This document shows positions 19,502 through 49,967 of a DNA stretch of 64,000 bases, one piece after another. The notes under the pieces are model-generated. The model did not search any database. It was not told where the DNA came from and was given only the letters and a program-made list of their open reading frames with translations. Numbering within the stretch: position 1 is the stretch's first letter; each line of letters starts with the position of its first letter. The translations under genes and the position numbers were made by a program. Source of the DNA: an uncultured Dehalococcoidia bacterium (GTDB lineage: Bacteria > Chloroflexota > Dehalococcoidia > Lucifugimonadales > UBA1123); assembly GCA_951812505.1 (NCBI GenBank), contig CATOSI010000001.1, positions 558,001-622,000 on the forward strand, read 5' to 3'.

Positions 19502-19577
19502 TGGTGGAGATAGGGGGGCTCGAACCCCCAACCTCGGCATTGCGAACGCCGCGCTCTCCCAATTGAGCTATATCCCC
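19502..19577 (-). tRNA. tRNA-Ala(CGC), encoded CCA
   Basis: Minus strand ggggatatagctcaattgggagagcgcggcgttcgcaatgccgaggttgggggttcgagcccccctatctccacca; anticodon loop ttCGCaa. Confidence 0.95.
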
Positions 19578-19746
19578 ACTCTCTTGGACGCGCCCATTAT
19601 ACCATGTTGAACGTTGACCATTACAAGTGTGCTGCTACTTGGGCGGGGTCTTTGCAAAGTCGTCCGCGCTTCCATTTCCACTACACATCCATTCCGCCAA
19701 TGCGCTACAATACATCCATGAAGAACAAAGTTTCTGGCACTGGATA

Positions 19747-19890
19747 CATAAATAAAAATTTATGTTTTCGAAAATCGAAGCCTCGGCGATTTCAAAACAC
19801 GCGAACGCAGGGCGACGCAGGGCAAACTCAGGGCAAAATCGCCCCCTGTACATGCCTGTGACTCGCCTGTTCCTGCCCTGTACAATTATA
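19747..19890. repeat. Phased word array locus 2 (CAGGGC/CCTGT) with AT-dyad cap
   Basis: CATAAAT-AAAA-ATTTATG at 19747-19764; CAGGGC at 19808, 19818, 19829; CCTGT at 19845, 19855, 19866, 19877 (spacing 10-11 bp). Confidence 0.88.
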
Positions 19891-19979
19891 AACCAGAATA
19901 TATGAACCTCCGGATCCGCTAACTCGCCGGAACATATCTGACTCAACTCTGAAAAAGCCCTGGCATAACGGAGATTCCA

Positions 19980-20795
19980 ATGGCAGACTTCGATGGCAAA
20001 GTAGTTATCGTTACAGGTGGCGCCCTCGGAATGGGTGGCGACACTGCGGTCGAGTTTGTTCGCAACGGAGCGAGTGTTGTGATAGCCGACCTGAATACTG
20101 AGGCCGGAGACCGGCGTGAGTCCGACATTCGTGCGGAAGGAGGTCGCGCCCTTTTTGTTGAGTCGGACGTCGCGCTCGCAGACGATGCCCGCCGAGTCGT
20201 TGATGGCGCCGTCGCCGAGTTTGGCGGGGTGGACATCCTGTTCAACAACGTCGGGATACAGCCCGTGGACTCTTACAAGAATGTTGAGGATACGCCCGAA
20301 TCAATGTGGGATAGGATTCTGGACGTCAACCTCAAGAGCTACTTTCTTATGGCAAAGTACGCCATCCCGGAAATCCGCAAGAGGGGTGGGGGAGTCATCA
20401 TCAACAACGCCAGCGTGCAGGGACTCCAGTCCCAGTATCTCGTTCCCGCATATGCCGCCAGCAAGGGAGGCGTGCTGTCTTTCACACGCCAGATGGCCCT
20501 CGACTATGCTCCCGAGAACATTCGAGTGCTCGCGATATGCCCCGGAACGATAGATACCGACATGGTGAGAACTGTAGCCGCCGCCGAAGGAGGGGATATC
20601 GAAGTGACCCTGGATCGCTACGGCGCCGGACACCCGGTGGGACGTATCGGTACAGGCCAGGACATCGCTAACCTCGTGATGTTCCTGGCGAGCGATAAGT
20701 CGTCCTTCATGACAGGTACCCATGTGATGATTGACGGCGGATACATGGCCCTCGGGGCATGGGCTGGTGGGGCCGGAGCCGATACCGGGCAGTAG
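19980..20795 (+). CDS. SDR-family oxidoreductase
   Basis: VVIVTGGALGMGGDTAV, VDILFNNVG, YAASKGGVLSFTRQMALDYAPENIRV. Confidence 0.9.
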   Translation: MADFDGKVVIVTGGALGMGGDTAVEFVRNGASVVIADLNTEAGDRRESDIRAEGGRALFVESDVALADDARRVVDGAVAEFGGVDILFNNVGIQPVDSYKNVEDTPESMWDRILDVNLKSYFLMAKYAIPEIRKRGGGVIINNASVQGLQSQYLVPAYAASKGGVLSFTRQMALDYAPENIRVLAICPGTIDTDMVRTVAAAEGGDIEVTLDRYGAGHPVGRIGTGQDIANLVMFLASDKSSFMTGTHVMIDGGYMALGAWAGGAGADTGQ

Positions 20796-32290: not shown

Positions 32291-33085
32291 TCATCCTCCG
32301 GGAGCAAGCACGCCTTCCACACTCGCCGATTCCACCCAGCCTTCGACTCCAGTGTCGAAAATGCCGATCTTCGACCACCTGCCTCTTCTGTCGATGAGTC
32401 TGACTTCGCTACCGGCGTCCAAGCTGAATCTGGGATCGAGGCTCTCCCTGGGACCGTGGTACACTCCCGCTGATTCGGCGGTTACCACAGCAATCCGCTC
32501 CCAGTGGAGCCGGTCCATGTGCTTGCCAATCGTAATCGAGCCGAAAATGAAAATGCACAGCACGGCCACTGCGGCAAGCCGACTCACTGTCATGGATGTT
32601 CGGAAGCGGCCTCCCCAGATATAAAGCGCAGCCAACACTCCCGCTACCAGCCATGAGACAAGAGTGGCAATCGCGGCCTGATTGAATGTTACCCAGGGGA
32701 CAAACTCCGAGAGTTGGACGAACACAGGGGTTGCCGACTCACGCGAATTGGGACTGTCAAGCTGCTGTCGCACAAATTCCAGATTCGCCGCAATATCCTC
32801 ATCGAATGGGGCGAACCTCTTCGCCCGAAGATAGTTGAGAATGGCGCGTCCCAAGTCGTCCGACTTGTAGTAGGAGTTAGCCAGATTATAGAAGAGCGTC
32901 GGGTCCTCATACCCGAGGCTGACCAGGTGTTGATACGTTCGCGCCGCTTCTTCGTAATTGCCGTCTTCATAAAATGCTCCGGCAGTTGCGAAGATTTTCA
33001 TGTCCGTCAACTCGTCGCCGTAGCTTACGCTTGAAATGGCGAATATGGCCACAAAGGCGACGACAACTGAGATCAGGATTTTCAT
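32291..33085 (-). CDS. TPR/SH3-like protein (BatE-like)
   Basis: EDGNYEEAARTYQHLVSLGYEDPTLFYNLANSYYKSDDLGRAILNYLRAKRFAPFDEDI; C-terminal SH3-like RGRWSKIGIFDTGVEGWV; position in bat operon. Confidence 0.8.
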   Translation of the reverse strand: MKILISVVVAFVAIFAISSVSYGDELTDMKIFATAGAFYEDGNYEEAARTYQHLVSLGYEDPTLFYNLANSYYKSDDLGRAILNYLRAKRFAPFDEDIAANLEFVRQQLDSPNSRESATPVFVQLSEFVPWVTFNQAAIATLVSWLVAGVLAALYIWGGRFRTSMTVSRLAAVAVLCIFIFGSITIGKHMDRLHWERIAVVTAESAGVYHGPRESLDPRFSLDAGSEVRLIDRRGRWSKIGIFDTGVEGWVESASVEGVLAPGG

Positions 33086-34881
33086 GTCTGAATCTCCCTC
33101 TCCACCCTACGGACTATTTCAGCCACAGCCTTCGAGGCGCTGCCTTGGTCAGCTAGCCATTGCGGCGCGAATCGTGATTGATCAAGCTCTCGGAGCACTC
33201 CCATAAGTTGCTGAATTGTGTCGTCCTTAACTCCAAGCTCACGCAGTGGAGTTTCAAGTTCTGTGATTGGGAGAGAGGAAGATGATCGTCCCAGAATCAC
33301 GCTCAGGTATCCGTGCAGGGCTGCGGTAGCGACATCCGCGCCGGATGAGGAGGTGTCAAGGTCGGACATCCTTGCAAGAGCTTGCTGCCGCGCTCGAATA
33401 GGTGCGTTAGCAAGTATCGCGGTCTCACGCCTTGCGACTGCCCAGCGCCACACAAATGATGCCAATAGCACGGCAAACGGCAATGCTCCCAGTCCCCAGA
33501 TCATCGGATTGACTTGAGTAGGATCAGAGGGAGCACCGATGCCGCGCGGCGCAGGCTTGATGTGCCTGATGTCTGTAACCGCCAGTGTACCATCCTCGTT
33601 CACTATGGGTTCTGGCATTGGAACCGCATTCGGGTCAGGGGCCACGTGGACTGAAATGCTCTGGGTTGATGCGGTAACATATTCCCCCAGAACAGGATCG
33701 AAATAAGAGTATTCGATTGGGGGCAGGTCGAAGTTACCAGCCGAGTCAGGAACGAGGACTCTTTGGAAAGTCTTTGTGCCGTTTATAACCCCATCCTGTA
33801 CGAATGAGCGATGGACGGAGTCGTTCTCGAACGCGCGCCATCCGGGTATGTCCTGCCAGACGGGATCGGGAAGTGTGTCGAAGTTACCCTGACCGTCGAT
33901 CTTGACAGTCAGCGTCACTGATTCTCCAAGAGTCACCGAAGCTGTATCTAATTCCGCTTCGATGTTGAACTTGCCGACCGCGCCCGTGAAAGAGGCTGGT
34001 TCGTTCGTGGGTAGGGGCTTCACCTGTAGAGCTACAGGCGATGAAGCGTACTCCCTGAATGAGGACGAGAACATACCTCCTGGCACGCCCACCGTACTGG
34101 GTTCTATGGATATGTCTCCCGCGATGGTTGGGAATACTATCGCGCTATATTCGATAACCGCGTATCCGTTTCCTTCAATCACTTCCGGGTATTCGCGCCT
34201 GTCGGTGCGGTCCGGGTTCCAGAAGCCCACGAAGTCGGGTGGACGGTGTATCGGCCTGATAAAGAATGGGTCTGAGGCGTAGAACTTCGAACTGTATGTA
34301 ATCTGCTCGCCGAGATAAGGGGCGTCGTTATCCACCTCGGCCTCGATGAAGTAAGCGCCATCGTTCACCGACGTATCGAACGATGGGTCGCCTTGGTTTA
34401 GCGGAGACTGCGGTCTGAGGAATGAACTCGCTGGCGGGAGCAAGGGAGTGGGTATAGGTGATGGAGTAGGAGGCACCCCCTGTGTGACATTCAGCGTAAT
34501 GGGAGATGTCTCGTAAGTGTCTCCGCCGATGGGTACCTGCACCGGTCCTATCACGATCGTGCCGGTGTGTCTGGGCTGCATTTCGATGATGAACCTGAAT
34601 TCAGCCGTTACCTTCCCCTGATTGTAGGACTGCTGAGAGTTGATCTTTCGTCCGACGATCTGAAGTCCGCTGAGCGTAGGAAAGACCGGCGCGCCGATAT
34701 TGTTCTCGCCGGTCACCGTGACCGTCAAAGTTACTGTGTCGTAGAGCGTGGGATCGGTGCGGTCCACTTCGGCGGTGACGGACGAGGTCTGGGCATTCGC
34801 CGACGGTGGCGCGGCAAATAGCACCACTGCCAACAGCAATGACAGCAGTAGTCCAGTCTTCACTATGTTAGTTGATACCAT
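33082..34881 (-). CDS. BatD family protein (oxygen tolerance)
   Basis: VTAEVDRTDPTLYDTVTLTVTVTG...PTLSGLQIVGRKINSQQSYNQGKVTAEFRFIIEMQPRHTGTIVIGPVQV is BatD-like. Confidence 0.85.
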   Translation of the reverse strand: MVSTNIVKTGLLLSLLLAVVLFAAPPSANAQTSSVTAEVDRTDPTLYDTVTLTVTVTGENNIGAPVFPTLSGLQIVGRKINSQQSYNQGKVTAEFRFIIEMQPRHTGTIVIGPVQVPIGGDTYETSPITLNVTQGVPPTPSPIPTPLLPPASSFLRPQSPLNQGDPSFDTSVNDGAYFIEAEVDNDAPYLGEQITYSSKFYASDPFFIRPIHRPPDFVGFWNPDRTDRREYPEVIEGNGYAVIEYSAIVFPTIAGDISIEPSTVGVPGGMFSSSFREYASSPVALQVKPLPTNEPASFTGAVGKFNIEAELDTASVTLGESVTLTVKIDGQGNFDTLPDPVWQDIPGWRAFENDSVHRSFVQDGVINGTKTFQRVLVPDSAGNFDLPPIEYSYFDPVLGEYVTASTQSISVHVAPDPNAVPMPEPIVNEDGTLAVTDIRHIKPAPRGIGAPSDPTQVNPMIWGLGALPFAVLLASFVWRWAVARRETAILANAPIRARQQALARMSDLDTSSSGADVATAALHGYLSVILGRSSSSLPITELETPLRELGVKDDTIQQLMGVLRELDQSRFAPQWLADQGSASKAVAEIVRRVEREIQT

Positions 34882-34941
34882 ACCGGAGCGACTCCCAGAG
34901 TAACGGCGCGTAAAGCATCGGATTGCTGAGTCATATATCTT

Positions 34942-35093
34942 GATTTATATATCTGCTGGTGGGTCTGCAGGTAGTCTGCTGACGCCCTACAAGAGGGGAA
35001 TGGTACCTGTATTCACCTGCATTTCACATGTATTAGCTTTGGAGCGGTTTTTCACGCTCCCTCTGTTTTCCAATTTATAATTTCGAATTTATG
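34942..35093. repeat. Phased word array locus 3 (CWGG/CCTG) with AT-dyad cap, inside bat operon
   Basis: CTGG 34956, CAGG 34968, CTGA 34979; CCTG 35006, 35016, CATG 35027; CAATTTATAATTTCGAATTTATG 35071-35093. Confidence 0.65.
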
Positions 35094-35244
35094 TATGTTG
35101 AGGCTCTGAGCCTCGTCGGTCGGCGCCCAGTCATTAGTTTGTATGTTCGTATTATAGTGGAATTGGGATGTGGATGTGTAGTCCTGTGGGAAACTGGGAA
35201 GACATCTGCACCCCGTACTTTCCAGAATTCTGTTCATCTGCCGC

Positions 35245-47571: not shown

Positions 47572-48801
47572 TCAGGCGACGGGAGCGGGTTCGGCGCGTT
47601 CGGACTCGGCTGCCGGCTGCGGCCACCAGCGGTCTTCGTACTCGTCCCACATGTCTTCGAGATATGGCTTGACCTGCGTGGCGAACAACTCGGTGTTCTT
47701 CATAGTCAGGTCCTTGGGCATGGAGCCGATCTGGAGAAGGGTCATAAGATGCCCGACTCTCAACCCCTCCACAGCGTTGCGGAGCTGCTCTATCACGGTC
47801 TTCGGACTGCCCGCTATGACATAGCCCTGCTCAACGTAGTCCTCCCAGGTCAGGCGCTGCCTGAACCTGCTGGCGGCGGCTCCGACCTGCTGAACGGCGC
47901 CGGACTTGATCGTGCGGATTGTGCGGTAACCGGGCGCCTCGGCGAAGCCCTCGTACACGTGCAGGCACTTCTTGTAGAAGTAGTCAACGTGCTCTGCGTA
48001 CAGTTCCTTGGCTTTCTCGTCCGTTTCCGCGACGCAGACAAGCTGTAGGAATCCGGCGCGGTAGGGATTGTCGTCAACGCCAAGCCGCTCCATCTCCTTC
48101 CAGAAGCCGTCCATGACCTGTATGCCGCGCTTGTAGCCGAAGTAACTCAAGTAGCAGTAAACGTAGTCCATACGCGCGGTCCACTCCCACGTCTCGACGC
48201 TGCCCCCGCCCGGTATCCAGACCGGAGGATGTGGGTCCTGGAGAGGGCGAGGCCAGATGTTCACGTAGCGAACCTGGTTGTGCTTGCCGTTGAACGCGAA
48301 TGGTTCGGGTTCTGTCCACGCCTTCATCACGAGGTCGTGCGCCTCGTAATACTTCTCTCGGAGGCTGGCGGGGGTCGCGCCGTAGGCGTAGTTGGTGTCC
48401 ATGGACGTGCCAACCGGGAATCCCGCTACCAGCCTGCCGCCGCTGATGCAGTCCAGCATCGCGAACTCCTCCGCTACGCGGAGGGGCGGATTGTACAGCG
48501 CAAGGCTATTGCCGAGAACGACTATCGCGGCGTCCTTGGTGCGGCGCGTCAGCGTAGCGGCGGTGATATTGGGCGACGGCATGATGCCGTAGGCATTGTT
48601 GTGGTGCTCGTTGATGCAGATGCCGTCGAACCCGACCTGGTCTGCGAATTCCAGTTCGTCCAGATACTCGTTGTAGAGTTGGTTCGCCTTGACCGGATCG
48701 AACAGGTGGCTGGGCACGTCCACCCAGACGCTGCGGTACTTCTCCTCGAAATCTTCGGGCAGATAGCGGTAGGGCATGAGGTGGAACCAGCAGAGTTTCA
48801 T
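47572..48801 (-). CDS. Luciferase-like (LLM-class) flavin-dependent oxidoreductase
   Basis: YLDELEFADQVGFDGICINEHHNNAYGIMPSPNITAATLTRRTKDAAIVVLGNSLALYNPPLRVAEEFAMLDCISGGRLVAGFPVGT. Confidence 0.9.
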   Translation of the reverse strand: MKLCWFHLMPYRYLPEDFEEKYRSVWVDVPSHLFDPVKANQLYNEYLDELEFADQVGFDGICINEHHNNAYGIMPSPNITAATLTRRTKDAAIVVLGNSLALYNPPLRVAEEFAMLDCISGGRLVAGFPVGTSMDTNYAYGATPASLREKYYEAHDLVMKAWTEPEPFAFNGKHNQVRYVNIWPRPLQDPHPPVWIPGGGSVETWEWTARMDYVYCYLSYFGYKRGIQVMDGFWKEMERLGVDDNPYRAGFLQLVCVAETDEKAKELYAEHVDYFYKKCLHVYEGFAEAPGYRTIRTIKSGAVQQVGAAASRFRQRLTWEDYVEQGYVIAGSPKTVIEQLRNAVEGLRVGHLMTLLQIGSMPKDLTMKNTELFATQVKPYLEDMWDEYEDRWWPQPAAESERAEPAPVA

Positions 48802-49013
48802 TTGGGCGACTCCCGTCTTTAGTTATTAGTGGTCAGTTATTGGTTTTCAGCTACGCTGATGTCCTTATGAGTCGGAGACTTTCGTCGGACGATTCCGGCA
48901 AGTCCATAAATTTCGATTTATAATTGCTCTGGTGGGAACAGGTGGCTTAACTGGTGAGGAACAGGTGAAAAGGTCACCTGAGTTTCACCTGAGAGGGTGT
49001 CTGAGAAGTCATT

Positions 49014-49463
49014 TCAGGTAGGATGCGCCAGTCTGCGAAGCATCAGTCTGATCATAGCAGCGTACACGAACGACTCTTCAGTCTCAGGCAAGTATTCATA
49101 GTCCTTAGACAGTCTGCGGTTACGTACCAGCCATGCGAATGTGCGCTCCACAACCCAGCGCCGCGGCAACACTACAAATCCCTTCGGACGAGTTGGAGGC
49201 TCCTGGTCACCTACCACCCATACCCTGCCAGACCAAGTATGTCTCACAACCTCCAAGTCCCAGCCCAGCGTGGTTCTCATCCACTCCTTAAGTCCGCGAT
49301 ATGCGTAGTCCGCCCACACTTTCCTCATCCTCGGAAACCGACTGCTCAGACCGTCCAGCACCATCTTGGATCCCGCGCTATCGCTTATTCCAGCCTCATG
49401 CACCTTCACCTTCAGTACCAACCCTTCAGTATCCACAAGTATATGACGCTTCCTGCCGTTCAC
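49014..49463 (-). CDS. IS5-like transposase, C-terminal part (OrfB; DDE catalytic region)
   Basis: [38 protein letters not shown]...VWADYAYRG...[45 protein letters not shown]. Confidence 0.92.
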
Positions 49464-49840
49464 CTTCTTGCCGCCATCGTAGCTGCGTAAGCCCCCCTTT
49501 CACTCGTCTTCGCCGACTGCGAGTCTATCGCACCCGCGCTCGGTGTGGGCCAACGTCCCTGTGTTACCCTGACTCGCTCGCGCAATGCCTCGTTCATGTC
49601 CTCCCACACACCTACCATTCGCCATGCTCTGAAATAGTGATAGACGGTCTTCCATGGCGGAAGGTCATGTGGGAGCATCCGCCATGGTATCCCACCTCTG
49701 AGAACGTAGAAGATGGCGTTGATGATCTCGCGCATATCTACTGAGCGCGGTCGTCCACCCGCTCTGGCTTTCGGAACCAACGGCTTGAGGATGGCCCATT
49801 CGGTGTCTGTCAGGTCCGTAGGATACGGTTTACGCTTCAT
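49460..49840 (-). CDS. IS5-like transposase, N-terminal part (OrfA)
   Basis: [74 protein letters not shown]. Confidence 0.92.
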
Positions 49841-49967
49841 AATGAGACGATCTTAACACTTCTCAGACACCCTCTGAGATGACCTGAGTTTAGCTACATA
49901 AAAAATTTTCTTTGGTCGGATGATCCACCATGTATAACCTTCTGTTTATGTATTAGACAGCAATTTT

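Follow-up and report, generated by a model that had tools for sequence, protein, structure and literature searches.

A phased array upstream of a dehydrogenase gene

The window, the whole 64,000-nucleotide stretch analysed here, corresponds to positions 558,001-622,000 on contig C1 of a 3.8-Mb genome and carries, between a tRNA-Ala(CGC) gene and a gene for a short-chain dehydrogenase (SDR), a compact set of phased repeats (Table 1). Three CAGGGC and four CCTGT motifs had been predicted here, in direct-then-inverted polarity and downstream of a CATAAAT-aaaa-ATTTATG dyad. On re-reading of the window, the position of every motif proved exact, the polarity was borne out (CAGG three times, then CCTG four times), and both the dyad and the two neighboring genes were found as described. 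The pattern CAGGN{5,7}CAGGN{5,7}CAGG has three matches in the window, all at this locus, versus 0.12 expected from shuffles, and among all 4-, 5-, and 6-mers of the window, a four-member chain at 10/11-bp steps was seen at this locus alone. The clustering is far from chance. The element is larger than originally predicted, running from a left inverted repeat that starts at 19644 to a right one that ends at 19962, for a total of 319 bp. Because other copies stand before unrelated genes, the proximity of tRNA-Ala is incidental; a functional link to it was rejected on the same grounds, and the window module belongs to the SDR gene.

Table 1. Features of the element at the SDR locus, its neighbors, and the other modules in the window (window coordinates)
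Feature	Position	Strand	Basis or remark
tRNA-Ala(CGC)	19502-19577	-	
Left terminal inverted repeat, CGGGGTCTTTGCAAAGTC	19644-19661 (C1:577644-577661)	+	TIR search of own genome; pairs with right repeat
CTACAC hexamer, putative -35-like	19681-19686	+	exactly 19 bp upstream of P1 -10
Predicted P1 -10 hexamer TACAAT (TGCGCTACAATA), directed at SDR gene	19706-19711	+	motif count and promoter scan
Whole module	19746-19904	+	sequence model R1, 67.4 bits, E 9e-20
Dyad 1, CATAAATAAAAATTTATG (ATAA-N8-TTAT)	19747-19764		all 52 aligned modules have ATAA and TTAT
GCGAA, family I form of AGCTAA motif, immediately left of array	19801-19805	+	module alignment
Left array, CAGG at 19808, 19818, 19829	19808-19832	+	
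Right array, opposite polarity, CCTG at 19845, 19855, 19866, 19877	19845-19880	-	
Dyad 2, TATAAACCAGAATATATGA, possible second -10 (P2)	19887-19905		all 52 modules have ATAA...TAT
Right terminal inverted repeat, CAGGGCTTTTTCAGAGTT on minus strand, inverted form AACTCTGAAAAAGCCCTG	19945-19962	-	TIR search
Short-chain dehydrogenase gene	19980-20795	+	ORF; Pfam adh_short_C2, E 1e-60
BatD-like gene	33082-34881	-	Pfam
Second window module, 50 bp upstream of BatD-like gene	34932-35094	-	59.6 bits, E 2.5e-17
Luciferase-like monooxygenase gene	47572-48801	-	Pfam
Third window module, upstream of luciferase-like gene, split within left array	48905-49951	-	two half matches to R1, plus sequence and ORFs

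The third module of the window is split by an insertion sequence (IS) of the IS4/IS5 type. The same IS (DUF4096/DDE_Tnp_1, ends AGGGTGTCTGAGAAGT), present at approximately 48995-49870 in the window, occurs as an unrelated insertion in the module at locus L163 (approximately 296-1175); its transposase spans two frames, and in both modules it was inserted at the same CTCAG of the left array. In the congener, Dehalococcoidia bacterium SB0664_bin_33, the orthologous module before the luciferase-like gene (L080) is uninterrupted.

A family of modules with predicted promoters

Recurrence of the phasing at further loci had also been predicted, and a search for it uncovered a genome-wide family. CAGGN{6,7}CAGGN{6,7}CAGG occurs 91 times in this genome versus 3 times for the reversed control, and a sequence-only model recognized at least 101 modules here and at least 108 in SB0664_bin_33, both counts being lower bounds since the best 150 candidates per genome were scored. 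In six further near relatives, the sequence-model scan detected no module; two of the six, G001 and G003, belong to the same genus, and the other four are G004-G007. Among 85,488 species genomes scanned, all matches outside SB0664_bin_33 were at chance level, and a scan of viral contigs gave only weak partial matches. One group of about 20 copies in this genome, family I, was not found among the SB0664_bin_33 modules collected; its terminal inverted repeats (TIRs) and its units have a CAGGG motif in common.

The aligned copies share one architecture: an ATAA-N8-TTAT dyad, about 35 bp ending A-rich, AGCTAA, three CWGG units, a center, a block of four or five CCWG units, and, at the other end, the second AT dyad, TATAAAYCNNRTATAT. 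Module size is fixed at about 160 bp with unit steps of 10 to 12 bp. Overall lengths are grouped around 152, 163, and 174 bp, and a few modules measure around 183 bp, i.e., lengths change in steps of about 11 bp or roughly one helical turn. Across 89 modules, steps of 10/11/12 bp numbered 76/93/3 in the left array, and steps of 9/10/11/12 bp numbered 4/85/91/73 in the right array. The first unit lies 63 or 64 bp from dyad 1 in 70 of the 89, and 27 bp separate the last CCWG unit from the end of dyad 2 in 71. The dyad spacer sequence is free to vary among the 52 aligned modules.

A co-oriented open reading frame of at least 90 aa starts within 420 bp in 135 of the 141 distinct modules with flanks. 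The genes concerned include, by Pfam, recA, uvrB, and the SDR, BatD-like, and luciferase-like genes and, as read by eye from protein starts, lexA, dinB, nusA, ligA, aroC, argC, sucC, groES, trigger factor, and tyrS. No common pathway was evident among the module target genes, and no constant distance was found between module and start codon.

A predicted extended -10 motif, P1 (GCTA[TCA][ACT]AT, also given as TGNGCTATAAT), lies upstream in the sense orientation of 112 of the 141 modules, versus 6 with the motif downstream and 1 + 1 antisense. In 55 of these 112, the P1 -10 is preceded by CTACAC or CTATAC at a distance of exactly 19 bp. Distances from P1 to dyad 1 are mainly around 40 or 61 bp, a difference of about 21 bp or two turns, which could reflect either helical constraint or common ancestry of subfamilies; minor groups near 31 and 51 bp were also observed among the 141 modules. 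The TATAAA of dyad 2 is a possible second -10 (P2). The predicted P1 is upstream of the array, which would thus fall within the transcribed region if P1 is used. Given the frequencies of co-oriented reading frames (135/141) and of P1 (112/141), homologous promoter-like sequences stand in the sense orientation before non-homologous genes, the defining arrangement of mobile promoters.

Apparent native promoters persist downstream of the module at recA and at the L141 locus, so that the cassette would add control there and not replace the promoter. About 100 bp upstream of recA (L093 and L216), a palindrome, CGAACGNATGTATTTACATTCGG, is followed by GATATACTC, both downstream of the module; this pair looks like a LexA box with the native recA promoter. 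At L141 (around 1850) and in its orthologs in SB0664_bin_33, G001, and G003, GTGCTATCCTCAGC or a similar sequence precedes the gene and resembles the module P1, which suggests that the TGTGCTAT-type extended -10 may be the housekeeping promoter of this lineage.

Dispersal of the cassette and selection after insertion

Both TIRs, with at most five mismatches, were found at 19 modules versus 0 in reversed-consensus controls. Of these 19, 11 are flanked by a 9-bp target site duplication (TSD) with at least 6/9 matches, perfect (9/9) at L150 and L151; that of the window copy is not recognizable (3/9). The TIR-bearing elements are 318 to 371 bp long and without a transposase gene, and their core is present in at least 101 and at least 108 copies in the two genomes, all of which is typical of a miniature inverted-repeat transposable element (MITE). 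Together, the TIRs in 19 modules and the 9-bp duplications in 11 imply that the cassette is MITE-borne. TIR matches number 52 in this genome and 45 in SB0664_bin_33 and are near control level in the relatives, and near-identical 320-bp copies occur at unrelated genes. No inward TIR pair around a transposase, as expected of an autonomous element, was recognized in this genome or in SB0664_bin_33; a candidate 1.2-kb TIR pair at C1:435290-436524 was rejected, since it proved to be a module into which an unrelated IS had inserted.

Elements of about 122 bp with the inverted repeats of the module (CAGGGCTTGTGCAAAGTC) and CGTCATTCCCGCGAAGGCGGGAATCCA in place of the array were observed at L168 (374-496), L169 (about 253-375), and L146; we take CGTCATTCCCGCGAAGGCGGGAATCCA to resemble the dRS3-type repeat of other bacteria. 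Two loci were considered as clean empty sites and rejected. At L141, the element is missing from SB0664_bin_33, G001, and G003, but the difference extends over roughly a further 1 kb, and the L139 locus is rearranged.

Comparison with SB0664_bin_33 indicates what may have happened to copies after insertion. Of the 25 genes preceded by modules in both species, about 10 have their best-matching module at the orthologous position. At 14 of the 25, the orthologous module ranks 8th to 50th among 57 and the best match lies elsewhere in the genome, the sequence family differing and the anatomy being the same. The SDR gene of the window is one such case, since SB0664_bin_33 has tRNA-Ala and SDR in the same order with an other-family module between them (33 bits with R1). 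The original prediction was to fall if the phasing were lost in close relatives, and this phasing is retained near tRNA-Ala in SB0664_bin_33 despite the different module family. Thus, the module family has apparently been swapped at some orthologous genes, including the SDR gene, with the architecture kept.

Eight orthologous pairs appear to be vertically inherited. Their conserved columns, defined from the other modules, differ by 3 to 6%, versus 30% for the variable (spacer) columns and 25% for the flanks (Fisher p ~1e-22). Since motif and spacer rates would be equal without selection, the difference argues for selection in place, and the cassette motifs, not the spacers, are evidently what selection keeps. 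Gene conversion between copies is a confounder that could mimic part of this motif conservation.

A purely selfish MITE, whose array and dyads bind a transposase or an enhancer protein and whose position upstream of genes merely reflects insertion or survival bias, is to be weighed against these data. It would account for the TIRs and 9-bp TSDs, for the expansion of family I in this genome only, and for the presence in the TIRs of the CAGGG of the family I units. It is, however, hard to reconcile with motif columns conserved at long-fixed orthologous modules, some of them (as at recA) without recognizable TIRs, with an orientation that is almost always sense, and with family swaps that leave an array at the same gene. 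We consider it unlikely.

Reading of the array and relation to known systems

Alternatively, the array may act as RNA, with a P1-transcribed CWGG/CCWG rod controlling translation or termination in the manner of a riboswitch or attenuator. We find this quite improbable. The location of P1 means that the array may be transcribed, the inner units often make a perfect hairpin with compensatory changes in L042/L064 and L024, and the predicted fold of the window RNA is somewhat more stable than those of shuffled sequences (z -2.8). However, the fold test suggested with the original prediction yielded no conserved RNA structure: the RNAalifold consensus of 52 modules has 4 pairs at -2.2 kcal/mol, and the units are not nested in register in the minimum-energy fold. 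The A/T of CWGG/CCWG is mismatched in 30/89 inner, 37/89 second, and 20/73 third nested pairs, which counts against pairing because paired units would need a matching A/T. Neither the variable distance to the start codon nor an Rfam search over 6 kb around the locus, which matched nothing except the tRNA, favors a leader, and the conserved, covarying secondary structure characteristic of a cis-regulatory RNA was not found among the modules. Structured RNA was thus rejected as the main reading, on the basis of the RNAalifold result for 52 modules and the unpaired A/T positions. Since CWGG and CCWG are one motif in opposite orientations on double-stranded DNA, a DNA-binding protein is the simpler explanation; with no conserved RNA structure, the array most likely binds an oligomerizing protein on double-stranded DNA that would regulate the downstream gene.

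Such a protein might simply govern an ordinary, vertically inherited transcription factor regulon of the host in which the TIRs are incidental, and the closest match does lie in the orthologous position at about 10 of the 25 shared genes. The TIR and TSD evidence, the absence of modules from the same-genus genomes G001 and G003, the want of an evident common pathway, and the near-identical 320-bp copies at unrelated genes make this explanation very doubtful. Site-specific recombination, with the ATAA-N8-TTAT dyads as Xer/Cre-type crossover sites and the array as accessory sites, is the least credible of all: the array does lie between two dyads whose distance from it hardly varies, and inverted half-sites set 8 bp apart are broadly reminiscent of cer or loxP, but the half-sites are just 4 to 5 bp, the spacer sequence varies freely, and no rearrangement or between-dyad excision product was seen among 141 modules.

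We favor, with a probability of roughly two in three, the reading in which a MITE-like element spread a promoter-bearing cassette, with the array as its operator core, and the cassette was then retained before host genes. In the model proposed from these sequence comparisons, a MITE-like element of about 320 bp, with inverted repeats CAGGGCYTTTKCAAAGTY and 9-bp duplications of the target, would disperse the cassette, copies of which would be retained in front of host genes after insertion. A putative protein would read the phased CWGG/CCWG units on double-stranded DNA, oligomerizing along one helical face and forming two blocks of opposite polarity that meet at the array center. This complex, together with binders of the AT dyads, may set the output of P1 and possibly of P2 (the TATAAA of dyad 2), so that the gene behind the cassette would join a common regulatory circuit.

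With 200 or more copies across two related genomes of the Chloroflexota, before genes as dissimilar as recA and nusA, the cassette suggests that a sizeable number of promoters were rewired by a transposable element. More tentatively, and at somewhat less than even odds, an undescribed global regulator of a Dehalococcoidia lineage may polymerize on MITE-delivered, helically phased CWGG arrays at 100 or more promoters, in a network that is MITE-built and continually reseeded; if so, that network would include genes for DNA repair, translation, and central metabolism. On the favored reading, the modules offer a bacterial case in which many promoters have acquired a transposable element with a large composite operator, and there is evidence for post-insertion selection and for exchange of copy families at the same gene. 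They also provide a testable system for transposon rewiring of bacterial regulation and point to a putative DNA-binding protein whose geometry of binding should be distinctive and predictable.

No description of this phased promoter cassette was found in the literature searched, and its parts have several parallels. Direct repeats about one helical turn apart, cooperatively bound near a promoter, are known from PhoB/OmpR-type tandem boxes and MraZ repeats; the module differs in its two blocks of opposite polarity, with 3 plus 4 to 5 units, its CWGG core, and its flanking AT dyads. The Correia elements of Neisseria (CREE/NEMIS) are MITEs with more than 120 copies, mainly upstream of genes, that contain internal promoters and a binding site for the DNA-bending protein IHF, and one copy drives uvrB (PMC10969869). 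The likeness lies in a promoter-bearing MITE with many copies upstream of genes, including uvrB, whereas Correia elements have no helically phased multi-unit array, carry an IHF site and an RNase-cleaved RNA, and are unrelated in sequence. BrickBuilt of Porphyromonas gingivalis is an intergenic MITE with a direct-repeat array that gains and loses units and has promoter activity in reporter assays (PMC4596501). BrickBuilt is, however, a spacerless 23-nt minisatellite in 19 copies, whereas the module has 4-bp cores at 10 to 12 bp, an inverted second half, a nearly fixed number of units, flanking dyads, and more than 200 copies in two genomes. The concept of putative mobile promoters (promoter propagation), cited in PMC4596501, covers similar promoter sequences found before non-homologous genes. 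Here, in contrast, the carrier element, its TIRs and TSDs, and selection on its motifs are demonstrable, and the mobile unit is a large composite operator. In sum, promoter-bearing MITEs are known already, and what sets this one apart is its composite, phased operator, the number of copies at promoters, and the evidence for selection in place and for the exchange of families.
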